From a virus: a stretch of 46,321 bases of DNA. The notes under the pieces were generated by a model. That model searched no databases. It was not told the origin of the DNA and saw nothing but the letters and a program-made list of their open reading frames with translations. Shown one piece after another: positions 17,480-45,931 of the stretch. Both the position numbers and the translations under genes were made by a program. Each line of letters starts with the position of its first letter. The first letter of the stretch is position 1. Location: IMG/VR virus record IMGVR_UViG_3300043775_004386, positions 1-46,321 of that record; one strand, written 5' to 3'.

Positions 17480-18016
17480 ATGAACTTTAACGAATTTTTA
17501 AATTTAGACGAATCTACACTACTCGATCTTTATAAGAGTACAGTCGATGCATTTCCTAAGACTACTAAAAGACAAAATTCTATCGATATGATAAAAATTA
17601 TAGAAATGAATTATACACCATATATAGGTATGAAGACTTTGTTTGTCAAGGGAATGGCAAAAAACATAGATAACCAAAAAGAATATGATTCTATTATTTT
17701 ATTTAAAAATATAAATTATGCAAAAGCAAAGAATGAAAGCATAGTAGAACTAATCGCAAGCAATAATAAAAAGTATTATATAGAAAGAATAAACCCTTAT
17801 TTAAATGAAGTAGCAGTAAGATGCAGTTGTCCAGATTTTAACTGGCGATTCAATTACTACAACTCTTTGGATAAGAGCTTGTATGGAAGAAAAAGAAAGA
17901 AATATGAGTCAAGAACTAATGCAATGAAAGCAAATGTTAATGAAGCAGAAGGAATGTGCAAGCACTTGATCAAATTGGTCAAAGCCATAAAAGACTCAAA
18001 ACTCATGGAGGACTAA
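17480..18016 (+). CDS. SWIM-type zinc-finger protein, probable virion-associated
   Basis: A 178-residue protein beginning MNFNEFLNLDES, which fits the capsid-targeting-like pattern. Its C-terminal half carries a SWIM-like zinc motif: CSC at 115-117, followed after a long insert (to Cys160) by CKH at 160-162. SWIM domains bind nucleic acid or protein. I chose the ATG at 17480 because a longer in-frame ORF from 17363 overlaps the divergent gene. The next gene starts at its stop (TAATG). It has no Shine-Dalgarno; the upstream AAATATAAT resembles a promoter-like element close to the start. Confidence 0.72.
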   Translation: MNFNEFLNLDESTLLDLYKSTVDAFPKTTKRQNSIDMIKIIEMNYTPYIGMKTLFVKGMAKNIDNQKEYDSIILFKNINYAKAKNESIVELIASNNKKYYIERINPYLNEVAVRCSCPDFNWRFNYYNSLDKSLYGRKRKKYESRTNAMKANVNEAEGMCKHLIKLVKAIKDSKLMED

Positions 18017-18567
18017 TGAAAAATGATTATCAAACTTTTTACAAAATGTTTTCAAAATTGGAAGGAATTAAAATATTTCAAAGCGAAGAAGATCCTAGTA
18101 CTTGGTTTTTCTTTTCTTGTAATTCTGAATATTCTTTTGCATTTGTTACCGCAATTGTAGAAGAAATAGGAGATGACAATATTTGTAAAATGGTTTCTCT
18201 TGGACACCCAATAAGCACAGAAGATACGGCTTACCAACTTGTTTTTCATGCGGATAAAGAACAATTGTATAAAACATTCATAACTAAAATTCATGCTTAT
18301 TTGGAAAATTCAAAAAACCTTAAATATGATGAATTCGGAACCCCAGATTTATCACTTGTGACAATCAAGCAAATTGCAAAAGAACTTAAAAAAAGAAAGA
18401 ATTTGTCTTTTGCTGTTGTTTGGATGGAAGACACAAATAAAGAAAATATTGCAATAGAAGGTAATGGAAATCCAACTCAAATAGTTGGACTATTAGCTAG
18501 AGGACTACACATGGCAATAGAATGGTCAGATAAATTTTTGAAGATAAGTAAACCAGAAAAAGATTAA
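18016..18567 (+). CDS. Unknown soluble protein coupled to SWIM gene
   Basis: A 183-residue acidic protein with mixed alpha/beta pattern (FFFSCNSEYSFAFVTAIVEE, then KELKKRKNLSFAVVWMED). The start ATG at 18016 overlaps the preceding stop (TAATG) and a GGAG lies 5 bases before it. The ending is Lys-rich. No domain is recognised. Coupling suggests that it functions with the SWIM protein. A longer frame from 17956 is not favoured because it lies inside the upstream gene. Confidence 0.6.
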   Translation: MKNDYQTFYKMFSKLEGIKIFQSEEDPSTWFFFSCNSEYSFAFVTAIVEEIGDDNICKMVSLGHPISTEDTAYQLVFHADKEQLYKTFITKIHAYLENSKNLKYDEFGTPDLSLVTIKQIAKELKKRKNLSFAVVWMEDTNKENIAIEGNGNPTQIVGLLARGLHMAIEWSDKFLKISKPEKD

Positions 18568-18899
18568 GCAATACCAATCTTTACTATCATCCAGTTGACA
18601 ACAGAATTGTTGCTGGATGATATTGTAAATGTCCAATCATGACTTTGTGGAACTGGACTTATTTCTTTTGAAATGTAAGGACAACCCTTATCGTTTGATG
18701 TGAGAAATATGGCGTAATCGGTAAAATCACCAGATGGTGATGGAAATTTGATCGTGGCACTTGTGCCGTTTATTTTTTCTATCCCAGCAGCAACTATTTT
18801 TGGACCAACAAGATTTGTTATACTCAATGAAGCTCTAGATAAATCATTCGATTTATAAGCCGAACCTATTCCTGTTCCTGTTACGCTTGAAGCACCCAT
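18564..18899 (-). CDS. Modular surface-type protein, shared N-terminal tag (1 of 5)
   Basis: A 111-residue protein. It begins MGASSVTGTGIGSAYK, the same N-terminal motif that opens four other genes in a row (18993, 19682, 20357, 21410). The remaining body is small, beta-rich and unlike the others. A strong AGGGGGTATAA precedes the ATG. It is the last gene of the tandem minus-strand array and overlaps the convergent gene by 4 bases. The shared tag suggests attachment to a common virion receptor protein; the body could be a decoration or fiber tip. Function unknown. Confidence 0.72.
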   Translation of the reverse strand: MGASSVTGTGIGSAYKSNDLSRASLSITNLVGPKIVAAGIEKINGTSATIKFPSPSGDFTDYAIFLTSNDKGCPYISKEISPVPQSHDWTFTISSSNNSVVNWMIVKIGIA

Positions 18900-18932
18900 T
18901 TATACCCCCTGATATATGTAAGCTTCACAAAT

Positions 18933-18970
18933 AAAAAAGTGATGTGGTTTTTACACATCACCTTTTTATT
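18933..18970. terminator. Bidirectional hairpin terminator after gene 18993-19574
   Basis: An 8-bp stem (939-946 with 954-961 in the 18900s) with a 7-base loop is flanked by an A-run on one side and a T-rich run on the other. It can terminate transcription in either direction and sits 32 bases downstream of the minus-strand gene that ends at 18993. Confidence 0.75.
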
Positions 18971-18992
18971 TTTAAATTAAATTAAAAAATGC

Positions 18993-19574
18993 TTATGTGT
19001 TTGTGCCAAAAGGATTACTTACAGTTTGACCACCATCTGTAATGACATCGCCTTGTATCCAGTAACTGGTTCCCAAACTAATCGCTACCACATAACTTCC
19101 TATGATACCACCAGTACTATTGTTGGTTCCATATTCGATTTTGTTACTCGTAGCACTGGTAGCAAAAGTTCTAGTTTCAGCTACGCCATTTTTGTGTAGT
19201 GTTAAACTACCAGTCATTAGATCTGAAAACGGATAGCACTGGATGAAAAATTGATCTGGGCGAACCGTGGTCAAAAAGCGGAATGTCTGCCCAATCGTAG
19301 TAGTGCTTAATTCTGGCAATGTTATGAATCCATTTGGTCCATGATCTAACAAAAAAAGTTTTCCATCATCAGATTCAGATATCTGATGAACAGGAAGAGA
19401 TACAACAGAATCAGTGTACGACACTATGGTCGAAATGTCAGATGAAGAGGATGCGTTTCCAATTGCTGAAGTCACATCTGCTGCTAGATTTAGTAGTTTT
19501 ACATTATTTTGAATTCTTGGTAATGAGTTTTCTACTGCTCCATTACCTCTTCCTGTCACACTAGATGATCCCAT
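18993..19574 (-). CDS. Modular surface-type protein, shared N-terminal tag (2 of 5)
   Basis: A 193-residue protein starting MGSSSVTGRGNGAVENSLPR, then a Ser/Ile-rich helix-like stretch and a beta-rich C-terminal domain with many Gly, Thr and aromatic residues. AAAAGGAGATTATT immediately before the ATG is identical to the leaders of two other array members. Its own hairpin terminator follows. The tag is shared, but the body is distinct from the other members. Probable virion surface protein, assigned by composition and context. Confidence 0.75.
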   Translation of the reverse strand: MGSSSVTGRGNGAVENSLPRIQNNVKLLNLAADVTSAIGNASSSSDISTIVSYTDSVVSLPVHQISESDDGKLFLLDHGPNGFITLPELSTTTIGQTFRFLTTVRPDQFFIQCYPFSDLMTGSLTLHKNGVAETRTFATSATSNKIEYGTNNSTGGIIGSYVVAISLGTSYWIQGDVITDGGQTVSNPFGTNT

Positions 19575-19636
19575 AATAATCTCCTTTTTATGTAAAATGA
19601 ATATATTTTTTGAAATGAATTTTTTTGAGAAATGAA

Positions 19637-19674
19637 TAGTTCTGCATCTTGGTTTTTGCCAAGATGCAGAACTA
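19637..19674. other. Perfect 16-bp inverted repeat (hairpin)
   Basis: TAGTTCTGCATCTTGG (637-652 in the 19600s) pairs perfectly with 659-674 across a 6-base loop. It lies between the array genes that end at 19682 and start at 19574. There is no clean T-run, so it may act as a weak terminator, an mRNA-stabilising stem or a protein-binding site. Confidence 0.7.
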
Positions 19675-19681
19675 ATTGAAC

Positions 19682-20245
19682 TTAGGAAACTGCTGCACTG
19701 AAAGGAGTTGCTTCAGTACCGCTATTTGTAAGGAATGCTTTTACGCAGAATTGACCAGAAGCAATATCTATTATCTCAAGACTGTCGCCTTTGATGCCAC
19801 CCTGAGTAGATCCATCCATTGTAATAGTATCAGTAGATGAAGTAGTTGGCCAACCATTTGCTGGTTCGCCATCTCCATCATCGGCAAGAGCCAAGCCAGA
19901 AATAATGTCCGTTGCATTGGCTACTTGAATCTTGTAGCTGTTGCTAGTTACAGTGGTATTAACATAAAATTTATAAATGTCACCAGTTCCAGTAGCTGCT
20001 GGAAGAGTAGCAACAACACCTGCTGCCCTAGTGAAAACCAAAGGAATTCCAGCAAAACTGGAATTAAGAGTTATTGCAGCAGTATCAAGCACCAATGGTG
20101 CTTTTGATAATGCGTTGTTGTCGAGCTTCGCTGCGGTCACAGCGTTTGGCTCGATGTTTGCTGTTTTGACAGAACCATTGAGAACCAATGGCTTGATGTT
20201 AGACGCAGAACCTTGTCCTCTTCCTTCTGTTGATGTAGCTCCCAT
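19682..20245 (-). CDS. Modular surface-type protein, shared N-terminal tag (3 of 5)
   Basis: A 187-residue protein beginning MGATSTEGRGQGSASNIKPL and then VLNGSVKTANIEPNAVTAAK, a linker shared in style with the tag region of the fourth member. The C-terminal body is beta-rich, with Ala/Thr/Gly and few charges. AAAAGGAGATTATT precedes the ATG, and a perfect 16-bp inverted repeat follows the gene. A virion surface role is inferred; no sequence relationship to the other bodies is visible. Confidence 0.75.
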   Translation of the reverse strand: MGATSTEGRGQGSASNIKPLVLNGSVKTANIEPNAVTAAKLDNNALSKAPLVLDTAAITLNSSFAGIPLVFTRAAGVVATLPAATGTGDIYKFYVNTTVTSNSYKIQVANATDIISGLALADDGDGEPANGWPTTSSTDTITMDGSTQGGIKGDSLEIIDIASGQFCVKAFLTNSGTEATPFSAAVS

Positions 20246-20281
20246 AATAATCTCCTTTTATATATAAAAAAAATCAAACAC

Positions 20282-20349
20282 AATAAACTTAGCTTAACAT
20301 AAAGACTAAGTTTATTTGAACGGCTTCAAGAAATTTAAAACCGTTCAAA
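20282..20349. other. Two adjacent hairpins in the array's intergenic space
   Basis: Stem one: AATAAACTTAG (282-292 of the 20200s) with CTAAGTTTATT (306-316). Stem two: TTTGAACGG (315-323) with CCGTTCAAA (341-349). They lie between genes 20357-21319 and 19682-20245. They overlap by two bases, so only one may form fully at a time. Confidence 0.65.
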
Positions 20350-20356
20350 TATTACA

Positions 20357-21319
20357 TTAAACAATCGCAGTTACATCCACACTCTTCCATGCACCGCCAA
20401 CATAGACTTCTATGTTGCTTGTCGCTGTGTTGTAACAAAACATGCCGTTGGTTGCAGTACCAGCAGCAGCATCTCTTGCAGTATTATTTGCATATACTGG
20501 CATGATTGGCATACTTTGAATATAAATGTGACCATTTCTACCAGCACCAGAATTAGTGCCACAAGAAAGAAACATATCGCCAGCACGATCTGTGCCAACG
20601 CTATTACCAGTAGTCAAACTCAAGTCACCACCACGACCATCAACTGTGCCATCACCAGCTTCGATACGGATGTCTCCGCCATCTACATCTGTAGTGGCTA
20701 GTGAATTGCCAGCAGTGATTTCTATGTCACCTGCTTCTGGATCATCATCGCTGCCATCTCCAGTTCCACTATCGCCAGCATGAATATGGACATGACCAGC
20801 CGACCCATCGCCACCAGCATCGCCAGCTTCAATATTAATATCGCCACCCTCGCTGTCAGTAGTACCACTTGATCCATCGCCACCATAGATGTTTACACCG
20901 CCAGCATCGCTGTTTTCGACACTATCGGCATCACCACCTCTAATCGTTACATTTCCAGCGTTTGCATCTGGACCATTGCCGGTATCACCAGCGAATATTT
21001 CAATGTTTCCGCCTTCGCCATTACCATTAGCTTTACCAGCGTAGATGAAAACACTGCCACCATCAGCATCATCTCCGACTCCATCAGCCTCAGAAGGATC
21101 AACCGCTAATGGGTATCCATCACCTGCTTTAATGGTAATGCTGCTTGCATCATCTTTTCCAGCAGTTCCATTTGCTGTTGATATTAAAATATTTGATGAA
21201 ATGTTTTCAAAAACATTACCATCTTGTATGTTTTCTTTTTTCACGACACCGTTTACGATTTTTGGTAAAAATTTTTCTACCGATCCTATTCCTCTTCCTT
21301 CATTAGTTGTAGCTGCCAT
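20357..21319 (-). CDS. Modular surface-type protein with Gly/Asp-rich beta repeats (4 of 5)
   Basis: A 320-residue protein starting MAATTNEGRGIGSVEKFLPK. The middle 200 residues are an irregular repeat, each unit carrying a beta triplet such as GGDIRIEAGDGT, GGNIEIFAGD or AGHVHIHAGD, spaced about 27-30 residues. Strand-turn-strand units rich in Gly, Asp and Asn suggest a beta-helix or Ca-binding roll, typical of phage fibers or adhesins. The tail ends VYVGGAWKSVDVTAIV. AAAAGGAGATTATT is upstream. It is the largest array member and is likely a surface-exposed fiber or host-recognition protein. Confidence 0.78.
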   Translation of the reverse strand: MAATTNEGRGIGSVEKFLPKIVNGVVKKENIQDGNVFENISSNILISTANGTAGKDDASSITIKAGDGYPLAVDPSEADGVGDDADGGSVFIYAGKANGNGEGGNIEIFAGDTGNGPDANAGNVTIRGGDADSVENSDAGGVNIYGGDGSSGTTDSEGGDINIEAGDAGGDGSAGHVHIHAGDSGTGDGSDDDPEAGDIEITAGNSLATTDVDGGDIRIEAGDGTVDGRGGDLSLTTGNSVGTDRAGDMFLSCGTNSGAGRNGHIYIQSMPIMPVYANNTARDAAAGTATNGMFCYNTATSNIEVYVGGAWKSVDVTAIV

Positions 21320-21370
21320 AATAATCTCCTTTTGTTGTGTTAAAAAAATTTTATATAGACATGAGAACTC

Positions 21371-21394
21371 CCAGCGTGAAGAAATCTACGCTGG
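21371..21394. other. Short hairpin between array genes 5 and 4
   Basis: CCAGCGT (371-377 of the 21300s) pairs with ACGCTGG (388-394) across a 10-base loop. It lies between array genes 21410-21808 and 20357-21319. There is no clear T-run. Confidence 0.5.
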
Positions 21395-21409
21395 AAATAA
21401 AAGGTTTGA

Positions 21410-21808
21410 CTAGCTTCTTACATTGATGCCGTTTTTAACGACCATGTACATGAATCTGCGTTCTTCATTGTCGCCAGTATGGAGTATGAAGCCACCAAAT
21501 CCATTCTCGAAACCATCATCTTCGTTGTTTCCATTTGCATCGAGCTTTTGGATGTGTGCTGGATATTGATTGCGTCCATCGTCAGCACCATAGTCAGATT
21601 GAATTACGAAAACAGAATAATGTTCTGGTCCTAGTGGTAATTCTGGAAATTGAATTAATGCTCGCCAGTTACCATTACCTATATCGATAGAAGTATCACA
21701 ATCACCAGACATGATGATATGTGGATCGTTGATGGTAATGTTTTTGATAGCTGGTCCAACCTTGCTGGCGGAACCTTGACCTACTCCAGTTACGCTAGTG
21801 GCACCCAT
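21410..21808 (-). CDS. Modular surface-type protein, shared N-terminal tag (5 of 5)
   Basis: A 132-residue protein starting MGATSVTGVGQGSASKVGPA, then a short linker and a compact beta-rich body. AAGGAGGCTATT lies before the ATG, a different leader from the other members. It is first in the transcriptional order of the tandem array. The body lacks repeats and is unrelated by eye to the others. Virion surface or decoration role inferred. Confidence 0.72.
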   Translation of the reverse strand: MGATSVTGVGQGSASKVGPAIKNITINDPHIIMSGDCDTSIDIGNGNWRALIQFPELPLGPEHYSVFVIQSDYGADDGRNQYPAHIQKLDANGNNEDDGFENGFGGFILHTGDNEERRFMYMVVKNGINVRS

Positions 21809-21917
21809 AATAGCCTCCTTAGAATTAAGGTATAGAAACTAGTATAGATATAATTATCGGTTATTTTTAATATAATCTATTGGATAAAAAATTGCGAAAA
21901 TAATATATACATTTATC

Positions 21918-22484
21918 ATGACTTATGAAAACAGTCCGATTATAAAATCATATCAAAAGCAAATCCTTTATGGAACCATATTGGGAGGATCTTCAATTGT
22001 AAATCCAACTTATGGAAGAAATTGCTATTTGGCCATGAGAGATAATAATTTGAATTGGCTTTCATATAAAATAAATGAACTTAAAGAATTTTTTAAAATA
22101 GATAGTAGTACAATTAAAAAAGACAAAAACACTTATCGGTGCTATTCGGTTGCCTATCCTTGTTTTAATGATTTGTATAGAACATTTTACAAAGAAGGTA
22201 AAAAAGTCGTAACTAGGGAGATATTAGAATCACTCAATGACCTAGCTTGGATGATTTGGTATATCGATTCTGGTAGGAAAAGCAAAAGAAAGGTTTACCT
22301 TAGAACACAAAAATTTGGAGAAGAAGGAACTGTGATAATAGCAGATTATTTTAATTCTCTTGATTGTTTTTGTGAAATTAAAAAACAAAAAGATAGATTT
22401 GAAATTGTATTTGACAACAAAGGCGCACAAGAGTATCTTAAAACATTCGCACACAGAATACCAAATTTTCTCACAAAAGAGTAG
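21918..22484 (+). CDS. LAGLIDADG-type homing endonuclease relict (probably impaired)
   Basis: A 188-residue protein with two LAGLIDADG-like helices: YGTILGGSSI at 18-27 and DLAWMIWYIDSG at 108-119. The second retains the acidic residue; the first has Gly-Gly where the catalytic Asp is expected, so nicking at one strand or no cleavage is likely. Between them are aromatic/charged segments as in the family. It is free-standing, not inside a gene. No Shine-Dalgarno is seen. Close neighbours are unknown small genes. Confidence 0.65.
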   Translation: MTYENSPIIKSYQKQILYGTILGGSSIVNPTYGRNCYLAMRDNNLNWLSYKINELKEFFKIDSSTIKKDKNTYRCYSVAYPCFNDLYRTFYKEGKKVVTREILESLNDLAWMIWYIDSGRKSKRKVYLRTQKFGEEGTVIIADYFNSLDCFCEIKKQKDRFEIVFDNKGAQEYLKTFAHRIPNFLTKE

Positions 22485-22487
22485 TTG

Positions 22488-22919
22488 ATGAGTACAAAAG
22501 TAAGTTTGTATTATGATCCAAAGATACATCTTTACCAAGAATCTTTTAGAGACGATTCTATTCACCTAAATGTTAATGAAAAAGGAATCGATCTTAAAAT
22601 TCAATTTTCACTTGTTGATTTTATAAAAATGATTCAATCAATTGATTTAAATTTATTGAAAAAACAAGCCAACATTACAGACGAACAAATAAAATCTTAT
22701 TGTGAAAAACAAGTTGAAAAAAGAATCGGTTTAAATAATGACATCTGTCAAATGTTTGGATATATGATTTATGGGGATTGCAAAGAATCAAAAGAAAAAC
22801 AAATAACAAATGGTATTCAATATCATGAAAATTTAAGAGAAAAATTGAAAAAAATAATTGAAGAATTAGGTTGTAATAAAAATACTTACTATTTTGGGCT
22901 TGAAGATATTTTGCATTAA
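22488..22919 (+). CDS. Unknown acidic/basic helical protein
   Basis: A 143-residue soluble protein (MSTKVSLYYDPKIHLYQES) with a central heptad-like helix (FIKMIQSIDLNLLKKQANIT) and C-terminal helices. I start at the ATG at 22488, just after the homing-endonuclease-like stop; an overlapping TTG at 22485 is possible. It is tightly spaced with neighbouring plus-strand small genes, suggesting an operon. No domain recognised. Confidence 0.6.
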   Translation: MSTKVSLYYDPKIHLYQESFRDDSIHLNVNEKGIDLKIQFSLVDFIKMIQSIDLNLLKKQANITDEQIKSYCEKQVEKRIGLNNDICQMFGYMIYGDCKESKEKQITNGIQYHENLREKLKKIIEELGCNKNTYYFGLEDILH

Positions 22920-28524: not shown

Positions 28525-28559
28525 AACTAAACATTTAAATTTAATCATTTAGTTTTTTT
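28525..28559 (+). terminator. Intrinsic terminator after methyltransferase
   Basis: AACTAAA (525-531 of the 28500s) pairs with TTTAGTT (548-554), followed by a T-run to 559. It follows the methyltransferase stop and overlaps the end of the convergent nuclease gene. Confidence 0.6.
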
Positions 28560-30170
28560 ATTGTATTTTTCTTTTGCTTTTTTAGATCTGCAAATTTTAC
28601 ACGATCTGCATAATCCGTCTGATTTTGAATTGTCTGGAGAGAAAAGTTTAAATTCCAATATTTGCAAACAGTTAACGCATTCTTTCTTTCCGTCAGCTAC
28701 ATGAGGATTGTTTTTTTGCAAATGTGGCTTCGCTCTACTTCCTGTTATATGACCTCCCTCACGCTCACATATGTAGCGACCATTTCTGGCTATATTCTTA
28801 TCGTGCGTAAGTCTTAGCGGAGTATGTTCCTCGTTGCAGAAGGAGCAAAATAAGGTGATTTTGTCGTTGGCAATATGGGTGTGGTAATATCTTTTTGATT
28901 TTTGATTGGCATTTTTCTTTGACTGCTCTTGAAATGTTTTGTCTCCTTGAGTTTCAGCAAGGTATTTCTTGGCCCAAGAAACTATATCCTTATCCGATAC
29001 AAGTTGGCTATCATCTTCAGTCCATAATTTAAATTTTAATCCTTTTTTTGCTGCGAAATCCTTCGAATCATTGATTTGATCGATCACAGTTTGATGTTTT
29101 AACCATAGTTTTGGCTTTATTTCCCATATTTCTGTTCCACTATTTAATTCTACATAGAGGTCTGGATTTCTCCATGATTTCTCTCCACGGAAAACTTCAC
29201 AACGACAAAAAGATTTAACTGAAGGATTTGATTCTAAAAGAAATAGGCATCTTAGTTCATATGATGAAGAAAAATAAATAGGTGAATTGTTTTTTTCGGA
29301 TTGAAAGTAACCTCTAATGTGCGAATGTTTGAAGTCTCCACTAGCGTGTTGACTAGCACATTTTTTCGAGATGTTTTCCTTCCATGTCATTCGAACCTCT
29401 GGTTTTAAATTCATAACCCAACGATTTTTTCCATAATCATAAATTCGTACAAGACCACGACTAAAGGCCCATTCGGATTCGGTCATACCATCTGGACATT
29501 TGCTACTAGATTTCTTCTGGCTTTGTTTGCTTAATCGTTTTTGCAATATGGTGTTTAAGTACGAATAATCAGACTTGTGTTTCTTTTCAAGGGTAAATCC
29601 AATAGATTCATAGACTTTTCCAATACTCATACGATTGTCACTGAAACTTATGATTTCATCATAGTCCATTTTCTTTGCCCAATCTACGGCTTTTTTTAGT
29701 AACTTACCAGCACCACCAATCACTTGTGTTTTGGTTCGGAAACATAGTCGATCTAAAACAATTTTATTTTCAGATATCTGTCGGCTATGTCTTCCAAGTG
29801 ACATGACACCAACTAATTCTTCTTTGTGCCAAAGACCAAAATATACTATTCCAAGATTGTTTGATCCTTGAATGTGAAATTCTTCTAAAAATGATTTTGA
29901 ATCTAATTTTGAAAGTTCTTTTACCTCACAATTTCTAGCTGACAATCTTTTCGAGTAACAACCAGCCTTGGACAACAAAAGTCCTTCCCATTGTTTTCTT
30001 CTAGAAGACCATTCGTCTGAAAAAATGACTATATTTGTTCCCGAAGAAGGCGTTTTAAACTTTGAAAACGATTTCGAATCGGACAAATCGACAAAGTCAA
30101 TTGCGAGTTCAATACCAATACTTTGCAGCCATTCTTGTGGTGTTGTTTGTTTCATTTTAATTTTAGCCAT
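28545..30170 (-). CDS. Large nuclease: GNAT-like domain + PD-(D/E)XK nuclease + C-terminal zinc fingers (homing-endonuclease type)
   Basis: A 541-residue protein. Residues about 108-207 form a GNAT-like domain (VIGGAGKLL then SFSDNRMSIGKVYESIGF), of the kind seen in Hef/Mom-like phage proteins. Residues about 299-352 carry a PD-(D/E)XK core: Glu305 in SSYEL, Asp337 in NPDLYV and Glu350-x-Lys352 in WEIKP. A C-terminal third has two CxxC zinc sites (CSFCNEEH...CEREGG and CVNC...CRSCKIC). It lies next to the gp23 gene, typical of homing endonucleases. No Shine-Dalgarno is visible. Confidence 0.72.
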   Translation of the reverse strand: MAKIKMKQTTPQEWLQSIGIELAIDFVDLSDSKSFSKFKTPSSGTNIVIFSDEWSSRRKQWEGLLLSKAGCYSKRLSARNCEVKELSKLDSKSFLEEFHIQGSNNLGIVYFGLWHKEELVGVMSLGRHSRQISENKIVLDRLCFRTKTQVIGGAGKLLKKAVDWAKKMDYDEIISFSDNRMSIGKVYESIGFTLEKKHKSDYSYLNTILQKRLSKQSQKKSSSKCPDGMTESEWAFSRGLVRIYDYGKNRWVMNLKPEVRMTWKENISKKCASQHASGDFKHSHIRGYFQSEKNNSPIYFSSSYELRCLFLLESNPSVKSFCRCEVFRGEKSWRNPDLYVELNSGTEIWEIKPKLWLKHQTVIDQINDSKDFAAKKGLKFKLWTEDDSQLVSDKDIVSWAKKYLAETQGDKTFQEQSKKNANQKSKRYYHTHIANDKITLFCSFCNEEHTPLRLTHDKNIARNGRYICEREGGHITGSRAKPHLQKNNPHVADGKKECVNCLQILEFKLFSPDNSKSDGLCRSCKICRSKKAKEKYNKKTK

Positions 30171-31559: not shown

Positions 31560-33005
31560 CTAAATAATAAAATTAGCAATCGACATTCTTGCGTAGAACT
31601 TCGCACCTTCACGAAGCAATTTCTTGCCGTATCGTGTTAAAATTCCCTTACGAGGACAGAAGCTTTCTGGATCGAGAACAACAGGAGTCTGAGTAAGAGG
31701 AACATAAGGGCAGTAGAAATATCCTGAGTCAAGATATGAATCGCCTTTATAGCCCATAAGGATTTGGTTAGATGGGAACAATGGATCTTTATATAGTCTC
31801 CAACGATTGTTCACAGTACCAACATACTGGATACCCAAGCTGCTGCTGAAAGTTTCAGAAGGTGCAGGAGCAAAACCAGCGGTTGCGGTTTCAAAGATTG
31901 AAGCAACTTCAGGAGATGTAACGATGAAGTTAGCACCACCACGAAGGGTCTTACGATGAATAACGGAGGAAATTTCAACGATCTTCACATAGAGAGATTC
32001 GTATTTTTCTTTGATAGTATCACCCAAGGAGGTGTTGAAATCCCAAGCGGTTACAGTACCAGCATTTTGACGGAGGTCGGTGAGAACTTCACGATCAATT
32101 TCAAGATTAATTTCTTGAGCAAGAACTGCGGTCAATTCGGCTTCAGCATCCAAGTTGTGTTGTGAGCGAAGATCTTGTTGAGCTTCATAAGACCATACAG
32201 CCTTCAACTTACGGGTTTTGGCAGTAATATCTTCAGATTCAACAACGAGGTTGATTTCTGGAAGATCTTGTGAGCATTCAAGATTAGCTTCGTAACTTGC
32301 AACGATATTGTTTGGGCCAGGGTTGCCGCCAGTCCAAGCAAGGGTAACTATACCGCTAGTAGGATCTAAACTTGATCCTGCGGAGATTGCTTTTGGGGTA
32401 GGAGTTCCGATATCGGTAAAGTTAAATACACCAGCGGAACTTACGCTGAATGTTTGAATAGCCACAGCACCATCATAAACAGTACCAGTAACGGTTCCTG
32501 TCAAGATAGGGGTGTGTTCAAAAGGACTGTATACAGATGTAGCATCTGCACCATCATCGGTAGCTCCCACTTCATTTTGAACGAACTGATGGGAATAGAA
32601 GATATCGAGATTAGCAGTACCATCTGCTCTCTGCATCAATGAATTTGCATCATCGCCAGGGAAACCGCTATTATTATCAGCACCACGAGTAGCACCCTTG
32701 TTGGAAGAGTATCTAAAGCGGAGATAATAAACAAGACCAGTAGGTCCTAGCAAAGGCTGGACTGATACGATCTTATTAGCGATCAATTGTGGGTAGATCC
32801 TACGAACCAATGGGATTGAGATTCGTTTGAATTGTGCGATGTCAGCGGTGTCGGTAGACACTTCGTTGATAAGGCGTTGGTTTTCGAGAAGAACTGCTGT
32901 GGCTGCACGAGTATTACGGTCTTCGATGCCTTCGAGGAGACCAGTCTTAGCCCAGCGTCCTTCTAACTCTTTAGCTTCATTTAAAAATCTAGCATTAGCG
33001 TTCAT
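31560..33005 (-). CDS. gp23: Major capsid protein, T4 gp23-like
   Basis: A 481-residue HK97-fold capsid protein of the T4 gp23 group. Diagnostic regions are ISIPLVRRIYPQLIANKIV and VQPLLGPTGLVYYLRFRYSS near the N-terminus, LRGGANFIVTSPEVASIFE and GYKGDSYLDSGYFYCPYVPL in the core, and RYGKKLLREGAKFYARM at the end. Compared with T4 it seems to contain a Gly/Thr/Pro-rich insertion around residues 165-245, possibly a surface loop. The N-terminal region contains LLE-type sites that fit gp21 cleavage. AAAGGAAATTTTAAT is upstream. It is the last gene of the head operon. Confidence 0.93.
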   Translation of the reverse strand: MNANARFLNEAKELEGRWAKTGLLEGIEDRNTRAATAVLLENQRLINEVSTDTADIAQFKRISIPLVRRIYPQLIANKIVSVQPLLGPTGLVYYLRFRYSSNKGATRGADNNSGFPGDDANSLMQRADGTANLDIFYSHQFVQNEVGATDDGADATSVYSPFEHTPILTGTVTGTVYDGAVAIQTFSVSSAGVFNFTDIGTPTPKAISAGSSLDPTSGIVTLAWTGGNPGPNNIVASYEANLECSQDLPEINLVVESEDITAKTRKLKAVWSYEAQQDLRSQHNLDAEAELTAVLAQEINLEIDREVLTDLRQNAGTVTAWDFNTSLGDTIKEKYESLYVKIVEISSVIHRKTLRGGANFIVTSPEVASIFETATAGFAPAPSETFSSSLGIQYVGTVNNRWRLYKDPLFPSNQILMGYKGDSYLDSGYFYCPYVPLTQTPVVLDPESFCPRKGILTRYGKKLLREGAKFYARMSIANFII

Positions 33006-33988: not shown

Positions 33989-34669
33989 TCAAACAATTTT
34001 AGATTTTATATTCTTTGTTTGATCTTCAATTATTCCACCTAAGCAAGCTATTAATGCTTCTTTGCTAATTTTATGTATGCTTCTGCTTTCGTTTTTAACT
34101 AAAGAATCAGAAGATTCCACTGAATTATTTGATGGAATGTAACTTTCACGCTTGCTTACAACTTTTTCTTGGAAAGCAGAATGTGTAGATGGATCAGCCA
34201 CTGCATCGAAAGTTAATAGTTTATAACTTTCGCCAATAACAAGAATTCCACTTTCATCTACTCGTCCGTTGCCAACACCTCTGCTGCTGATTCCAACACG
34301 CACACCATCATTGATGAGTGCTTTTAGAATACGGCCATGAGGAGTGTTTAATATCTCGCCTTCACCCATAAGATTATTTCCTTCCCACCATAACTTAGTA
34401 ATTACATGGGAAGCTTTTTCGAAATGTATGATACTATCTGTAGGATGATCTAATTCGCCAATCAATCCTCTTGCTTCAATTATTGGAGTTAGAGCCTTAA
34501 CATTGTCGTTTAAGACGCTGTAAGGATATTTCCTTTTATTTTTATTGACAGCTTCTGCTTCTTGGAATTTTCCTCTAAAGCTAGTTAATCCTTTATTAGT
34601 GGATTCATTTAGACTTAGAACGAAACCGCCAGAATTGCAGGAGTCAACAAGTAGCATTTTATCACTCAT
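33989..34669 (-). CDS. gp21: Prohead protease, T4 gp21-like (S80)
   Basis: A 226-residue serine protease with the gp21/S80 motifs: GELDHP at 71-76 (His75) and VGISSRGVG around 125-133 (Ser128/129), plus a distal Asp (FDAVADPS). The family cleaves scaffold and capsid proteins after a Leu/Ile-x-Glu-type site inside the prohead. TAAAGGAGAGTA precedes the ATG. Position and order with scaffold and capsid match T4. Confidence 0.93.
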   Translation of the reverse strand: MSDKMLLVDSCNSGGFVLSLNESTNKGLTSFRGKFQEAEAVNKNKRKYPYSVLNDNVKALTPIIEARGLIGELDHPTDSIIHFEKASHVITKLWWEGNNLMGEGEILNTPHGRILKALINDGVRVGISSRGVGNGRVDESGILVIGESYKLLTFDAVADPSTHSAFQEKVVSKRESYIPSNNSVESSDSLVKNESRSIHKISKEALIACLGGIIEDQTKNIKSKIV

Positions 34670-36705: not shown

Positions 36706-37020
36706 ATGAAAACATTTTATGAATTTATGGAAAGTGTGGGAACTGATTTGGCCAATGAGATTGGTCCAATGGGATTGACAAAAGAAAGAATGGAAGTTTT
36801 GGCACCAATGTTTGTCTTCGTTGATAAATCAATCAATAATGATCCTACCTTCATGAGTAGACTATATAATTTATTTAAAACAGAAGTTTCGCAATTTCCA
36901 CAACTTCAAGAAGATTTTGATAAATTAGATGTTCAAAAAATTAAACGGGCTGTTAGTGGTGTTGAAAAAAATCGTACTACCGATATGGTTGTTTTGCCTA
37001 ATTCAGATAGCCCAATGTAA
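36706..37020 (+). CDS. Small protein with T4 internal-protein-like targeting peptide
   Basis: A 104-residue protein starting MKTFYEFMESVGTD; the first ten residues are close to the capsid-targeting peptide of T4 internal proteins (MKTYQEFIAE). A Glu at position 9 could be the prohead protease site. The rest is acidic and helical, with no other motif. GAGGTAAAAA precedes the ATG. It lies divergent from the 612-residue head protein, with a shared promoter region between. Confidence 0.7.
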   Translation: MKTFYEFMESVGTDLANEIGPMGLTKERMEVLAPMFVFVDKSINNDPTFMSRLYNLFKTEVSQFPQLQEDFDKLDVQKIKRAVSGVEKNRTTDMVVLPNSDSPM

Positions 37021-38079: not shown

Positions 38080-40590
38080 TTAACTCAAATAACTAGTGTC
38101 TTTATCTTCGTAGTCTTGTTCTGTTCCATAGCTATAGATTTCAAGGTTATATTTCTTCAAATCTTCCTCATCTGCTTCTGGTATTTCAGAGGCGGACGAA
38201 CCAGCTTCTTCTTTTGATTCACCCTCTTCTGGTGGAGTTCCTTCTGGTGGTGGAGTTCCTTCTGGTGGTGGAGTTCCTTCTGCACCCAATTCTGGAGTAG
38301 GTCCACCAGCCTCGGCACCAATTTCTGGAGCAGCTTTTTCTTCACTTGGAACACCGACTCCAAGCAATTGTGGATTTTGCCCCATGATAGCAATTTTTAA
38401 ATCTTCAAGTTTTTGTAATTTCAAACGACTCAACATCATCGATGCATCTTCTTCGCTATGCATAAGTATTTTTGTTAATATGTCGAAATCCGACATAAGC
38501 AAACTTCCCTTAAGCGATGCAGCATTTCCAAATCTTGCAGTCTTAACTTCATTTCTTGACAATTCACGCCAATCAGAAGGTGATGTCATTTTTATTTTAA
38601 GATCTTGATACATTTCACTTGGGTAGCCACGAAGCTCTAAATGTCTTTCGCAAAGATCAAGAATACCATCTTCAAAATTTGATTGTAATCTTTCAATCAT
38701 GCGAGCAAATTTTACATCTTGTGCAGACAATGTAATTCTTGTTGCATTTACATCTTCGCTTGAGAAATAATTTTTGGGAAAGTTTAGAGACACAAATAAT
38801 TTATTTCTGAAGTACAAAGCATCATCTACTTCTCCAAGATTTTGCGCACCAGGCAAAGTTTCAATTCTTGTATTTGCATTAGGGCGAATTGGAATCCAAA
38901 AGTCTTCATCTTGTGCAGGTGGTTGCCATCTTTCTTCAACCATATTGGCTCCGCTATTGCCACGATTACCAGCAATTTTTCTCTTTCTGAATTGATCTTT
39001 CATTCTTTCCAAAAATGCTTCTGCTTTAAATGGAGGAAGCTGACCAACATCAATATAGAACACTCGTCTCTCAGGTGCCCGGGTTAGCCTATACACCACC
39101 ATTGCATCTTCCATGAGTCTCAATTGATGTGCTGGTCCTCTGGCTGGCTCAATAAGAGACTGTCCATAAGGATAGAAGTTTCTTCTATCGTCTCCTATTC
39201 TAATGTGTAAAACTTGTAATGGATTAAATCTAATTGCTGTAGATTGATTGAGTTCCGCATCACTAAGTTGTGATATATCTCCTCTTCCCAACGATTGATA
39301 ATCTGGGCCTTCTTTGGATTGTTGGAATTCTATTAATCTTCCTTTAATGGTTTCAATCCTATACATTGTTTCTGGTGGTAGTGTCGTAAGTTTATATATT
39401 CCGTCAGAAGGCTTGTCGGGATTTATAACTATTTCAAAAAATTTATCACCATGAACAATTAAATCTTTAAAATAGGCAAATGCATGACGATTCAAATTTA
39501 ACATTTTTCTATGTAACAATAAGAATTCAAGTTCTTTTTTCACATCATCATTTTTGCAATCAATTTTAAAAACATTACCAGTATCATCTTTTTGGCAATT
39601 GTGAAGTATAACAGAATCAGTTGCGAAGCATTTGTGTTTTTCCACAGATATGTCATACACATCAATTTCTTTTCCTTCTGTGACTCCAACTACTTTGCGA
39701 CAAGTTTTGCTTTTATTTAAATATTTTAATTCTTTAAGTGAGAATCCATTTTTGTGAATACAATTTTCTACTGTGTGCCAATCTAAATTCATGATTTTGG
39801 CAATTTGTCGAACAGGAATATCTCCACAAATCAATCTTGTTGCTCTATTTAATTTTTCATATTCTGGATTTGTTTTTCCATATCTCCAATCATCGATGAA
39901 TTGTCTTTCATGTACCCATCCTTTTTCAAAGCTCATGATTCTTGGAAATTGATTTGTTTTGATTTTTGTAAGGTCTTGATTTGCTGGGGTTCGATAAAAT
40001 GGCATTAGTTCATCGCCAAATTCTAATTCACCACAGGGTATCCATTCTCCATTTCTTTTAAGAACTCTATGATCTGGTGTTGCGACAATTGACTTTCCAT
40101 TGTCTAAAAGTATTTCAATGGTTTTTGCTTTTTTTACAATTCTTGGAGCAAATGCCCATCCTAAACTGTAATCATTTTTTTCAAAATCATAACAATATAC
40201 TAGAAATCTTTCATCTGCTTTATTGTTTGTTAGCCATTCAATTGTTTGATAGCCGAATGGAGTTGCAATTTTAGTATCACCAGAAACACAAGCTTCATCA
40301 GCAAATACGGTCATAGCCATTTCAATTTCTGGAACATTTCTTAATCTTTCGTATTCCTTGTACCTCATACTCCTATTGCCAAGAGTAGTAGTATCAATCA
40401 TGTCATAGGTTTGACGAAGATTTACATAATTACTTGGTCCTTGGCCTGTTACTAGCTCTCCGCCAGTTTGAAGGGCATCGGTTTGTGCTATACCTGCACC
40501 CGTAAATTTTGAAGTATCCTTTATTTTGCTTAAAGGATCTTTTTCGGTTGCGTATGTAAACAATTTAAAAAAATCTGACCAAACTGTCAT
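38080..40590 (-). CDS. gp20: Portal vertex protein, T4 gp20-like, interrupted by an in-frame intein
   Basis: An 836-codon ORF. Extein 1 (residues 1-100) ends MAMTVFADEA, and extein 2 (332-836) contains portal-type sequences such as AYFKDLIVHGDKFFEIVI, RLMEDAMVVYRLTRAPERRVFYIDVG and FRNKLFVSLNFPKNYF. Spliced length is 605 residues, close to portal proteins of large T4-like phages. The intein is residues 101-331. The C-terminus holds a Pro/Gly/Glu-rich tandem repeat (GTPPPEGTPPPEGTPP). AGAGGAATATT precedes the ATG. It forms the dodecameric DNA-entry ring and starts the head operon. Confidence 0.93.
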   Translation of the reverse strand: MTVWSDFFKLFTYATEKDPLSKIKDTSKFTGAGIAQTDALQTGGELVTGQGPSNYVNLRQTYDMIDTTTLGNRSMRYKEYERLRNVPEIEMAMTVFADEACVSGDTKIATPFGYQTIEWLTNNKADERFLVYCYDFEKNDYSLGWAFAPRIVKKAKTIEILLDNGKSIVATPDHRVLKRNGEWIPCGELEFGDELMPFYRTPANQDLTKIKTNQFPRIMSFEKGWVHERQFIDDWRYGKTNPEYEKLNRATRLICGDIPVRQIAKIMNLDWHTVENCIHKNGFSLKELKYLNKSKTCRKVVGVTEGKEIDVYDISVEKHKCFATDSVILHNCQKDDTGNVFKIDCKNDDVKKELEFLLLHRKMLNLNRHAFAYFKDLIVHGDKFFEIVINPDKPSDGIYKLTTLPPETMYRIETIKGRLIEFQQSKEGPDYQSLGRGDISQLSDAELNQSTAIRFNPLQVLHIRIGDDRRNFYPYGQSLIEPARGPAHQLRLMEDAMVVYRLTRAPERRVFYIDVGQLPPFKAEAFLERMKDQFRKRKIAGNRGNSGANMVEERWQPPAQDEDFWIPIRPNANTRIETLPGAQNLGEVDDALYFRNKLFVSLNFPKNYFSSEDVNATRITLSAQDVKFARMIERLQSNFEDGILDLCERHLELRGYPSEMYQDLKIKMTSPSDWRELSRNEVKTARFGNAASLKGSLLMSDFDILTKILMHSEEDASMMLSRLKLQKLEDLKIAIMGQNPQLLGVGVPSEEKAAPEIGAEAGGPTPELGAEGTPPPEGTPPPEGTPPEEGESKEEAGSSASEIPEADEEDLKKYNLEIYSYGTEQDYEDKDTSYLS
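38226..38282 (-). repeat. Tandem 18-bp repeat in portal C-terminus
   Basis: About three copies of an 18-base unit encode Gly-Thr-Pro-Pro-Pro-Glu; the end copies are shortened. This is a Pro-rich tail, probably flexible and variable between relatives. Confidence 0.85.
39598..40290 (-). mobile_element. Mini-intein in the portal protein, endonuclease lost or replaced by an HTH segment
   Basis: The 231-residue intein begins Cys101 (CVSGDTKIATP, block A), has block B with TPDH near 171-174, and ends with block F/G (VYDISVEKHKCFATDSVILHN, ending His330-Asn331), followed by +1 Cys332. These are the splicing residues of a class 1 intein. No LAGLIDADG or HNH motif is visible. The insert region (about 235-295) instead has a HTH-like stretch (RQIAKIMNLDWHTVENCIHK). 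Splicing would join ...FADEA to CQKDDTG..., a portal-like junction. Confidence 0.9.
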
Positions 40591-43070: not shown

Positions 43071-43673
43071 ATGTTAAAACATAATAATATAATAACTCGT
43101 GACAATCTTGTTGATCACATTCAAAATTATGGTCTTGATAAAAATGAAGTTCATTGGGGTTCTATTCCACAAGATTCAATTGAAAAAATAATTGAACTAA
43201 TAAATGAAAATGATTTAAAAAATGGATTACAAATTGGTGGATTTGTCGGAATAACTCATTGCTGTCTTGCGTATGCTCTTAAAGATAAGGGGATCATGTG
43301 TACAATAGATCCAAATATAGAACATCGTAAAATAAAAAGACCAATGGATATAGCAATAATAATGGCTACAGAATATAAATTAATGAAAAACTCTATGTTT
43401 ATTTGTGGTTATGCCCAACAACAAATGGAAATATTTTATTTTTTGGGATTAAAATTCGATTTTATTTTGATTGATGGTAATCATCAAGAAAATATTTATA
43501 GCGAGATTGAACAAGCAGACAGAATATTGAAAACTAATGGGTTGTTAATCATTGATGATATCGATCTTTGGGATTTCCCCAAAAAATCATATGAAAACTT
43601 CCCATTAGAATCTCGCTATAAAAAAATACCAGCAAACAAAAGAATCGGAGTTCTTAGCAAACTTTCCTGCTAA
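43071..43673 (+). CDS. SAM-dependent methyltransferase (class I), third copy
   Basis: A 200-residue class I methyltransferase. Motif I is degenerate (LQIGGFVG, 53-60), a DPN acidic loop follows, and FILIDGNHQ at 131-139 matches the IDG(D/N)H motif in the enzymes at 27938 and 37115. The N-terminal 45 residues are variable. It is the third member of a small paralogous set, presumably methylating sugars or related substrates. It starts 3 bases after the lipoprotein gene; there is no Shine-Dalgarno. Its 3' end overlaps the metallopeptidase gene by 20 bases. Confidence 0.72.
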   Translation: MLKHNNIITRDNLVDHIQNYGLDKNEVHWGSIPQDSIEKIIELINENDLKNGLQIGGFVGITHCCLAYALKDKGIMCTIDPNIEHRKIKRPMDIAIIMATEYKLMKNSMFICGYAQQQMEIFYFLGLKFDFILIDGNHQENIYSEIEQADRILKTNGLLIIDDIDLWDFPKKSYENFPLESRYKKIPANKRIGVLSKLSC

Positions 43674-45312
43674 TCAAAGATCCTATTGTTCTGCAAATTT
43701 TAGAACAAATCGTACTTGATGTATAACATCCTCTTTTTACAGCTACTGGTTCTTCTTGTGGAGAGCAACTGCAATCTACAGTAACACCTTTAGAGCCACA
43801 GCCAGCGTTATTCTGCCCTTTCCATGGCTTGCCATATTCTGGAGCATTTGGATCACAAGCATTATTTGGATTACATTTACAAACAATTTTCTTTCTTAAA
43901 AGTTTATTGTTTATAACTTCAAACATGTGAGAGTCATCTTCTCCAATAAGATTATTTTCACTTAATGAATTCACACAAGAATTCGCCATTTCATTAACTT
44001 CTTCTTCGCTAGTTTCAATCGCATGAATTAAATTCTTATCTTTATCAAACATATACATATTTCTACAAGGAACCTCTACAGTCATATCTTTTTTGTTTGA
44101 TAAGATTGAAACTTCTTTTTTTATTTTAACTATTGATGCTGATTGTGTTTTTAAAACAAATCCATCATCACAAGTGATTTCCTGTACTTCTCGTTTATTT
44201 TCCTTTACGATGCTTTTATAGGTTTTATTAGAAAGTGCTTGGAGCGTTGTTCCAATTATGTTTCTTTTAATAAAAACCTTTCTCAAAACACTTCCATATT
44301 TGGAATTATTTTGTGATTTATCATAATTCAACATTTGCAAAGCAGCAGAGTTATAAAACTTAATGGTATCTGCAAATTGACAAGCATACAAAATATATGT
44401 TACTGCTGTATCTCTAGCAGATTTAAGTGCTGGCAAAGGTTGCATGCCACTAGACATATTTTGTTTGAATATTTCAATCATACATTCATACCAAGTGCCA
44501 GTCCACACCCTGCTAAAGCTATGTGGTTCGTTAGATAGTTGATCATTAGGACTATCTTTTGGCAATTTTTTAGGATCAACATAAATAAAATCGTTAACTG
44601 CATCACGAAGAAAATATTGATATGTTTTATCCCCAGTAACATCAAATATTGCCTTTCCTAATTCTTCGGCCAATCTTGATATGATATTTGATTTAGAAAG
44701 GTCGTTATTTGTTTGCGTTAAAGCTTTTTGAAGTATTTGGTCATATTGCATAATATTTGAAATAGCTGAAATATCACCAAAAGATTCATGAAAAGCCCAA
44801 GCCTCATATGATTGTGCATTCCAAAGATCTGGTCTAAGTATGTCTAAGAACGCATGTCCGAATTCGTGAGACACAATATCTGCTGATTCGGCTGTATATA
44901 CAGTTTTCTTAGTTACAGTATCAATATCGTAAAAGAATTTAAGATTAGATCTATCATAATATGCGTTAAAATCTTTACCTGCTCTTGGCAATACATTTAA
45001 GGTGCTTGTAGCTGCCCATTTTGTAAATGTCTTTTTGGTTTTATTTTGCGAGATTAAATATTTCGCAGTATTTTGAATAGTCACATAACAACTTGCTGCT
45101 TGACCTTGCAATGTATGCATGGCATAACCACCACCAACATATCCTTGTACATTCAACTTCAGTGAAGATGCAGTTGGTGGAACAATTTTAACACCTTGTT
45201 CTGGTGTAGTTGGGTCATTCAAAAGATAATCTATTGTTTTTACGGGTGTAACAGCGATTTTGTTTTTCGCTGTACATACAGATTTAAAAATGTTTTTTAT
45301 CCAGTTTAACAT
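43654..45312 (-). CDS. Thermolysin-like (M4-type) metallopeptidase with Cys-rich tail
   Basis: A 552-residue protein starting at the ATG at 45312 with AAGGAGGCAATC upstream. The zinc motif is HEFGHAF at 149-155, with the third ligand in AFHESFGDISA (Glu176/Asp180), as in M4 gluzincins. The C-terminal 80 residues are Cys-rich (CKCNPNNAC, CSCSPQEEP, CYTSSTICSKIC), perhaps a disulfide or metal module. No signal peptide is visible. A frame extending to 45447 is not credible as a start. Probably a virion or cytoplasmic protease; exported activity is not shown. Confidence 0.78.
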   Translation of the reverse strand: MLNWIKNIFKSVCTAKNKIAVTPVKTIDYLLNDPTTPEQGVKIVPPTASSLKLNVQGYVGGGYAMHTLQGQAASCYVTIQNTAKYLISQNKTKKTFTKWAATSTLNVLPRAGKDFNAYYDRSNLKFFYDIDTVTKKTVYTAESADIVSHEFGHAFLDILRPDLWNAQSYEAWAFHESFGDISAISNIMQYDQILQKALTQTNNDLSKSNIISRLAEELGKAIFDVTGDKTYQYFLRDAVNDFIYVDPKKLPKDSPNDQLSNEPHSFSRVWTGTWYECMIEIFKQNMSSGMQPLPALKSARDTAVTYILYACQFADTIKFYNSAALQMLNYDKSQNNSKYGSVLRKVFIKRNIIGTTLQALSNKTYKSIVKENKREVQEITCDDGFVLKTQSASIVKIKKEVSILSNKKDMTVEVPCRNMYMFDKDKNLIHAIETSEEEVNEMANSCVNSLSENNLIGEDDSHMFEVINNKLLRKKIVCKCNPNNACDPNAPEYGKPWKGQNNAGCGSKGVTVDCSCSPQEEPVAVKRGCYTSSTICSKICRTIGSLISRKVC

Positions 45313-45397
45313 GATTGCCTCCTTGGAATAATGTGATATAATATATAATAATTTAAGGTTATATATAAATTTAATATTTACATGATATGGAAACAAT

Positions 45398-45931
45398 ATG
45401 CACAATAGAGAGAAGTTAATACAAGAGCAAAGAACAATAGAGGCCATGAAAAAAGGATATATTGGATATGAAGGAAAGTTTGCCTACATAGCTAAAAAAT
45501 TAGGATACCCAATTATATCACAAGGCGGAGGCAATTATAATCAGACATTTCTAGATGATTTTTATGACTTTAATGATAGTAATGATGACAAAAACGAATT
45601 GCCAATCATGGATGAAAATGAATCTATAAGTGAAATTGGAATGTCTTATGAGGGATTGCAATTTGGCAATAATTTAACTATTATTTTGCTATATGGTAAT
45701 GCGGATATTACAGTTAGACATGAGAGCAATCTTGTTTATAAGGAGGTTGCTGGAGAACTTGAAGGATTTGTTCCTAATGAAATATGGGAAAATCATATTG
45801 AAAAGATGTATGAGTATGCAAAAAAAATAGAAAAGAAAAAAAGACCTTTAGAAAATGAAGATTTGGAAAAAAAAGCAAATAAAAAGAAAAAAGAAATATT
45901 AGATGATCTTAAGAAAAAATGGGGAATATGA
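45398..45931 (+). CDS. Unknown acidic protein
   Basis: A 177-residue protein (MHNREKLIQEQRTIEAMKKG...). Charged and helical, with an acidic middle (DDFYDFNDSNDDKNELP) and a Lys-rich C-terminus (KKANKKKKEILDDLKKKWGI). There is no signal peptide or recognised domain. The start ATG follows GGAAACAAT. Its end overlaps the next gene by 4 bases (ATGA). The intergenic region before it is A/T-rich and divergent to the metallopeptidase gene. Confidence 0.6.
   Translation: MHNREKLIQEQRTIEAMKKGYIGYEGKFAYIAKKLGYPIISQGGGNYNQTFLDDFYDFNDSNDDKNELPIMDENESISEIGMSYEGLQFGNNLTIILLYGNADITVRHESNLVYKEVAGELEGFVPNEIWENHIEKMYEYAKKIEKKKRPLENEDLEKKANKKKKEILDDLKKKWGI

Follow-up and report, generated by a model that had tools for sequence, protein, structure and literature searches.

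The window analysed here, an IMG/VR virus record of 46,321 bases (IMGVR_UViG_3300043775_004386), includes a head module of T4 type and, downstream of its major capsid protein (MCP) gene, a tandem array of five adjacent minus-strand genes (g1 to g5, positions 18564-21808, Table 1) whose products open with a common N-terminal tag. This tag is 13 residues long, with a consensus in the array of roughly M-G-A-[TS]-[ST]-x-[TE]-G-x-G-x-G-[SA]. Among the 86 window open reading frames considered (ATG-started, at least 60 residues, six frames), the pattern matches exactly these five, and shuffling residues 2-20 of g1-g5 returned one match in 2000 x 5 trials (1/10,000). The genes g2, g3 and g4 have in common an 18-nt string (AAAAGGAGATTATTATGG), made up of 14 bases of leader and ATGG, and hairpins lie in all four gaps of the array. 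The preliminary description, made from the sequence alone, had reported a shared tag on five consecutive minus-strand genes, three identical leaders, hairpins in four gaps and one Gly/Asp-rich body (here g2), and each of these observations holds up. Exact TATAAATA late-promoter words occur ten times in the window, none of them upstream of an array gene, and positions 18000-22500 hold 30 promoter-like sites (17.6 expected), from which we draw no conclusion, and 7 terminator-like sites (2.9 expected).

Table 1. Features of the tagged array, its neighbours and the head module (positions in the window; residues are amino acids).
Feature	Position	Strand	Basis or remark
g1, tagged small beta-sandwich protein, 132 residues	21410..21808	-	Open reading frame; body family shared with g5
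Tag of g1, 13 residues (39 nt; the equivalent 39 nt open each of the five genes)	21770..21808	-	
g1 compared with the orthologue of L005			Residues 1-31 identical (31/31); remainder 56/103 columns
g2, tagged Gly/Asp repeat protein, 320 residues	20357..21319	-	Open reading frame
g3, tagged capsid-spike/baseplate-type domain, 187 residues	19682..20245	-	AF2 model; Pa223 fold match; untagged homologues beside MCP
g4, tagged, probable relative of the g3 body, 193 residues	18993..19574	-	hhalign
g5, tagged small beta-sandwich protein, 111 residues	18564..18899	-	AF2 model; Pam1 fold match
Hairpin, gap g1-g2, 7-bp stem	21371..21394	-	Read from the sequence
Two hairpins, gap g2-g3	20282..20351	-	Individually 20313-20351 and 20282-20316 (g3-proximal)
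Hairpin 3' of g3, 16-bp stem	19637..19674	-	Compensatory changes in relatives
Hairpin, gap g4-g5	18924..18976	-	Arms 18924-18946 and 18954-18976
LAGLIDADG_2-family gene, divergent array neighbour, conserved locus border	21918..22484	+	PF03161, E 1.1e-28
Conserved gene, other border of the locus	17956..18567	+	Similar genes (by eye) near a tag gene in L121, L122, L125, L126
MCP, T4 gp23 type	31560..33005	-	phrog_138, E 1.8e-83; array downstream on the same strand
Prohead protease	33989-34669		Peptidase_S77, E 8e-26
Portal protein with intein	38080-40590		Portal_T4, E 3.2e-75

Relatives of the array are designated by L-numbers, which label their loci or records; several of the records compared are near-duplicates, and the counts given below are partly non-independent. 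A regular expression for the tag gave 102 hits, of which three (T028, T029, T045) were false and were removed, leaving 99 tagged proteins for alignment; a tagged Collar protein of L084 that this filter had missed was added with eleven others, for a collection of 111. Across the alignment, G8, G10 and G12 are invariant (99/99), A3 is found in 95 proteins and G2 in 87, and position 7 is T in 71/99 and E in 17/99. By eye, the tags come in two flavours, ‘TEG’ and ‘VTG’: the former tend to lead into K-P-x-I-x-N-G-x-V-K-x-x-N with a larger body, the latter into a stretch that closes with L-I-G-P-[KR]-V, after which comes a small beta-sandwich.

Pairwise, the window tags have 5 to 10 of their 13 residues in common, as against only 20-30 of 39 nucleotides, a level of DNA similarity that rejects, or at least weakens, the tag as a pure DNA repeat. 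The tag could nonetheless be devoid of function, as the common start of duplicated genes that recombination or gene conversion at the shared leader keeps alike. Such an origin would suit the identical 14-nt leaders of g2-g4, and also the codons, which are the same at 26/51 four-fold sites of the five tags where codon usage predicts 17.4, a point that also counts against the explanation favoured below. But the tag DNA is this loosely conserved when its three glycines never vary, and tags are also carried by single genes in large phages that have no array, so that we regard a functionless tag as very improbable. Because residues are kept better than nucleotides and codon identity is only modestly raised, we read the similarity of the tags as protein-level conservation together with some common ancestry.

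Comparison with relatives shows that cassettes are exchanged between phages under this constant tag. Twenty hand-chosen records entered the gene-by-gene nucleotide comparison. In a close relative, contig 4717, the flank genes are 97-98% identical to those of the window, the protease 99% and the MCP gene 97%; the array genes range from 98% (g5) and 92% (g4) to 75% (g3 and g1), and g2 has only a 62-bp match. Within g1 of this pair, residues 1-31 are identical (31/31) and 56/103 columns agree after that, and the ten pairs of five g1 orthologues agree at 28-31 of 31 positions in the first part and at 52-89 of 103 in the rest. Elsewhere, an identity of 90-94% in single tagged genes contrasts with 64-86% in the flanks and capsid genes of the same phages. 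Thus, g2 is 94% identical over 973 columns in records with an MCP gene at 85% and flank genes at 72-78%, g2 and g3 together are 94.0% identical over 1684 bp in L137 (other segments 65-86%), g3 is 91.5% identical over 656 bp in L135 (other segments >100 bp 64-77%), and g4 is 90-92% identical in four records with an MCP gene at 74-75% (in one case through a 398-bp match). In L035 and L081, g4 lies 3.2 kb after the capsid gene, and cassettes therefore sit at different loci. One record (L002), which matches the window at 100% in g1 and MCP and has the same five tagged proteins, is uninformative on exchange.

The breakpoints of exchange are intergenic, within the gaps. The window, L137, L135 and L133 have the same g3-proximal 5' hairpin and, among them, three different preceding genes, and in the hairpin 3' of g3 the pairing is kept through A-T to G-C changes on both arms. 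Given the extent of the shared segments, the breakpoints in gaps and the hairpins that travel with genes, what moves is roughly a single gene plus the hairpins of its gaps, or a pair of neighbours jointly. These comparisons support a constant tag carrying interchangeable bodies, as the preliminary description had proposed, and an exchange of cassettes between phages.

The same description had the five bodies looking unrelated, which does not hold for all of them. With the tags removed, hhalign links the families of g1 and g5 (probability 91, E 8.7e-7), whose bodies are homologous by sequence comparison, and those of g3 and g4 (probability 44, E 2e-4), whose bodies are probably homologous, and it never exceeds a probability of 2 for the remaining pairs. 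The window bodies form three classes (g1+g5, g3+g4 and g2), and a single family for all five was rejected by this comparison. For the 111 tagged proteins, BLAST at E 1e-4 yields 17 body groups (69 members for the small beta-sandwich, then 16, 6, 5 and 3, plus twelve singletons), a grouping on sequence only in which folds may be common to some groups; a body set aligning as one family, which had been named beforehand as an outcome that would speak against the cassette interpretation, was not what we found. The singletons include the tail Collar protein of L084 (PF07484, E 1.2e-22, plus a Gp10_C domain) and a 363-residue protein of LR756511.1 that ends in K1-lyase_C (E 2.4e-10, 41.2 bits, which passes the PF24146 cut-off). 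A tagged protein of L085 has PHROGs tail-fibre matches, and g5 scores 19.3 bits against PF24146 K1-lyase_C, under the curated cut-off of 27.

AF2 models predict a disordered tag and folded bodies for both proteins modelled. In g5, residues 1-4 and 8-21 fall below pLDDT 50 and body residues 34-107 form a six-strand beta-sandwich (blocks at pLDDT 86-92); in g3, residues 1-19 are below 50, blocks within 51-120 stand at 88-96 and later blocks at 71-94. Neither model has a helix in the tag, and that of g5, which has only the six-strand sandwich and the disordered tag, has no beta-helix or fibrous shaft. In fold, g5 comes closest to the receptor-binding domain of the tailspike of cyanophage Pam1 (Z 8.9, 1.9 Å over 67 residues), by which g5 has the tip-domain fold of tailspike C-termini; further matches at Z 5-7 are a K1 capsule lyase, depolymerase S2-4, the LKA1 tailspike, an R-pyocin fibre and an H-type lectin. 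For g3, the top match is the Pa223 capsid spike (Z 11.2, 2.3 Å over 100 residues, 14% identity), followed by a Klebsiella phage baseplate chain (Z 10.4), which we take to be gp10, by CBA120 TSP4 and by T4 gp9; its matches in a viral fold library are mostly unnamed. The repeat protein g2 may be a beta-solenoid. A shared fold is no proof of function, and it is by domain and fold matches that the bodies are of adhesin or spike type, in keeping with the surface domains that had been suggested for them.

Gene neighbourhood points to the capsid. We examined 41 of 80 MCP loci, including all with at least 7 kb downstream: 24 of the 30 with at least 7 kb of sequence have tag genes within 10 kb downstream of MCP (on the same strand in 21), the distance being 88 bp in L058, and no tag gene was found upstream in any of the 41. 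The tag genes are thus placed in the capsid neighbourhood, as looked for in head fibre and decoration proteins. Tags were present in 20/20 and 35/38 records of two sets, most of which were reached via tag or MCP hits and do not form an unbiased sample. Among 60 more distant loci with the g3 body, 59 lack the tag (two of these 59, L269 and L278, are cut at the start). Where these untagged loci have an upstream open reading frame, the nearest of at least 100 residues is an MCP in 43/49, 129-412 nt away, from the families phrog_371 and phrog_1328. MCP followed by the untagged g3 body is also annotated in Rhizobium phages, of which five hold the body (the two translated ones without a tag), and the cultured Pelagibacter phage HTVC023P has the same order, gp40 then gp41. 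A different short common start, like MASTTFSGPVTS or MASTTFSGPVTSTAGF, is found in 52 of the 60 loci (L258-L316 with L317), possibly an independent anchor in another lineage.

Because tag genes lie downstream of MCP and the untagged g3 body lies next to it, the docking site is most likely the capsid rather than the tail. The same modular adhesin logic could also work from the tail or baseplate, in a whisker or short-fibre position, and this has to be considered because of the Collar and baseplate relations of the bodies: Collar and Gp10_C domains stand under the tag in L084, the L085 protein resembles tail fibres, and fold matches extend to tailspikes, T4 gp9 and baseplate chains. We nevertheless find the tail an unlikely site, since the locus belongs to the capsid gene neighbourhood, the untagged g3 body follows capsid genes of two distinct families, and the top fold match of g3 is itself a capsid spike.

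The borders of the locus hint at its history. On one side, the array adjoins the divergent LAGLIDADG gene, and on the other a conserved gene whose product has no Pfam or PHROGs match. Querying with the LAGLIDADG gene gave 50 loci; the relevant side extends to at least 400 bp in 46 of them, and in 39 of the 46 it carries a divergent tagged gene at a distance of 87-158 bp. In L125 (a record of 223 kb) and L126 (98 kb), these two border genes enclose a single tagged gene of 112-113 residues, from which we infer that one small tagged protein was the ancestral state and that the array is an expansion; in L130 (532 kb), only the LAGLIDADG side is kept. An active LAGLIDADG homing endonuclease has an acidic residue in motif 1, and by eye this position is G or T in 8/8 aligned sequences. 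As the usual acidic residue is missing, we do not claim that this gene drives the exchange; it may be inactive, and its product is possibly a domesticated DNA-binding protein.

Our favoured explanation, which we hold with a probability of roughly 60%, takes the five genes to code for exchangeable adhesins or spikes in the virion of a T4-like large phage, each anchored, most likely to the capsid, through its constant N-terminal peptide. Each protein would combine a constant, unstructured peptide of ~13 residues (extended by a longer conserved stretch in many members) with a folded outer body. The peptide would plug into one repeated site of the particle, most likely on the capsid, and any body bearing it would thereby be displayed; the body, often a beta domain of tailspike-tip or spike type, would probably bind glycans of the host or of the surroundings. 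Each gene would act as a cassette made of a ribosome-binding leader, a tagged open reading frame and gap hairpins, and such cassettes would be gained, lost, replaced and moved between phages via recombination in the gaps. Of this, presence in the virion, docking on the capsid, the binding of glycans and separate expression of each gene are inferred, and taken as a whole the earlier cassette and docking-tag interpretation is partly supported.

A more general reading, tentative and in our view more doubtful than the first, is that the tag is the general display address of this lineage, a Gly-comb 13-mer that would place any carrier on one repeated particle site. Behind it would stand a common stock of one-gene cassettes, whose bodies are related to tailspikes, to baseplates and to capsid-adjacent spikes of other phages, reshuffled gene by gene, and the coat would change faster than the rest of the genome. 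On either reading, swapping gene by gene would probably serve to redecorate the particle with one docking site kept. One small tag on many exchangeable bodies would explain how large uncultured phages alter their surface properties with the capsid protein untouched, and the tag would be a very small natural display peptide. Since tag and body can be assayed apart, the redecoration of phage particles becomes directly testable.

Several observations weigh against the favoured explanation, beside the raised codon identity and the partial non-independence of the counts. The Collar, K1-lyase_C and baseplate matches are to tail-associated proteins in known phages, and the site could be on the tail. 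Six of the 30 MCP loci have no tag gene nearby, two of them (L013, L052) in records that carry tags further away, and neither do seven of the 46 LAGLIDADG-gene loci, among which L156, L158 and L161 carry tags at other places of the locus or record and L166, L167 and L176 belong to records in which no tag was found. Non-phage proteins (a subtilase and cellulase modules) also reach Z ~6 in the fold list of g5. Furthermore, the tag is used beyond adhesin-like proteins. Two tagged proteins, of 74 residues in L228 (L228:6001-6222) and 65 residues in L229 (L229:6001-6195), consist by eye of the tag, LIGPRW and a C-terminal hydrophobic, membrane-helix-like stretch, and are possibly membrane-anchored; two others, in L235 and L238 (66 and 68 residues), are tiny and Cys-rich. 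A tag on non-virion proteins had likewise been named beforehand as speaking against the cassette interpretation, and these four, which do not look like virion adhesins, may or may not be of that kind.

These four proteins would be easier to accommodate if the tag were an address or processing signal for some other destination, such as the head interior (as for T4 internal proteins), the host membrane or export, and some tags read T-E-G or N-E-G, reminiscent of T4 prohead protease sites. The capsid targeting sequence of T4 is a helical N-terminal peptide that ends in a prohead protease site with Glu. The tag, however, is predicted to be disordered with no helix, has Glu at position 7 in only 17/99 proteins as against Thr in 71/99, and precedes many bodies of adhesin type, and we consider another destination improbable. 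On the first two grounds, a capsid targeting sequence of T4 type becomes less likely as the nature of the tag. A separate set of proteins, at 36706-37020 in the window and in L232, L234, L237 and L240, have starts resembling MKTFYEFMESV, presumably reminiscent of T4 capsid targeting sequences, and the lineage may have a second N-terminal address, for the head interior. The Cys-rich tagged gene of L238 (L238:828-1031) lies directly 3' of a gene apparently related to the one at 43654-45447 in the window, whose product has a weak Peptidase_M4 match (E 0.0066, below cut-off) and ends in a Cys-rich tail. By eye, the 68-residue protein resembles this tail, as if the Cys-rich tail had been turned into a separate tagged gene in L238.

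As to its origin, the window is a fragment of a little-known T4-like lineage of large phages: the best capsid-protein match in the phage collection is to LR756511.1 (77.7%), which comes from an uncultured phage with 595 kb of DNA, and related capsid proteins are found in IMG/VR records of up to 532,729 bases. No link was found to the large-phage lineage of PMC12619734 in the part of that paper considered. Two further window genes are of note, namely the T4-type portal gene, which has an intein splicing domain inside (PF14890, E 2.2e-12), and a gene at 28545-30170 for a fusion-like protein that matches Mom (E 8.9e-10), GNAT and, below threshold, a TnsA-like nuclease.

Searches with the tagged proteins themselves returned little. 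For the five window proteins, Pfam and PHROGs returned no match that passed the cut-off or had E <0.001, Hoc/pb10-type families included, and no match of note over the tag to a known tail-anchor N-terminal domain. In 50,697 phage records, tblastn with g2, g4, g5 and five tagged proteins of relatives (g1 was not a query) found tagged relatives only in LR756511.1; some searches had weak matches (E 0.4 or more) or none, and one located the g3 body in the five Rhizobium phages. Sequence searches of the PDB returned nothing convincing (best E 0.52), and no relative turned up when one small tagged protein was compared with bacterial and archaeal genome contigs. Within the literature searched, three tag strings did not occur, nor did a single tiny tag spread over 17 body groups, in tandem arrays with singly moving members.

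Among known systems, capsid-bound proteins offer the first comparison. T4 Hoc and T5 pb10 are capsid-bound proteins with beta-sandwich (Ig-like) domains, which are said to contribute little to capsid integrity and to help adhesion (PMC7602432); in the portion of that source considered, no short shared tag or tandem cassettes are mentioned for them. The Pseudomonas phage Pa223 capsid spike (PDB 9ny6) has the fold of the g3 body at 14% identity, and no paper on it was found in our literature search. For the exchange itself, homing endonuclease gene (HEG) islands are the nearest parallel, described in the part of PMC10448857 considered as segments of high nucleotide identity between less similar phages, >10 kb in size and beside endonuclease genes. 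The array likewise has high-identity segments beside a gene of an endonuclease family, but its units are single-gene cassettes and its LAGLIDADG neighbour may be inactive.

Tail fibres are known to pair a constant anchor with a variable tip, and head fibres to dock by a short N-terminal segment. Tailspikes and fibres (Pam1 and CBA120 TSP4 by fold; phage Adele, in the part of PMC12846349 considered) have a constant particle-binding N-terminus and a variable C-terminal part, and the tagged proteins likewise combine a constant N-terminus with a variable, probably receptor-binding end; unlike these tailspikes, g5 has no shaft or beta-helix in its model, and the anchor of the array is predicted to be a short disordered peptide. 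A further likeness is with the head fibres gp29 and gp21 of phiCrAss001, whose N-terminal residues 1-58 and 1-38 bind a hexon pocket of the capsid and present an outer domain, residues 58-118 of gp29 being a predicted C-terminal beta-sandwich (PMC10172136, in part). The tagged proteins may have a layout of gp29 type (a docking segment and an outer beta domain), a conserved disordered tag and a folded beta body being predicted for them from sequence and models. Where phiCrAss001 has two fibre proteins for two hexon types in the part of that source considered, however, a single near-invariant tag recurs in the lineage of the array, on as many as six genes of a locus and across 17 body groups, and the genes are exchanged one by one.

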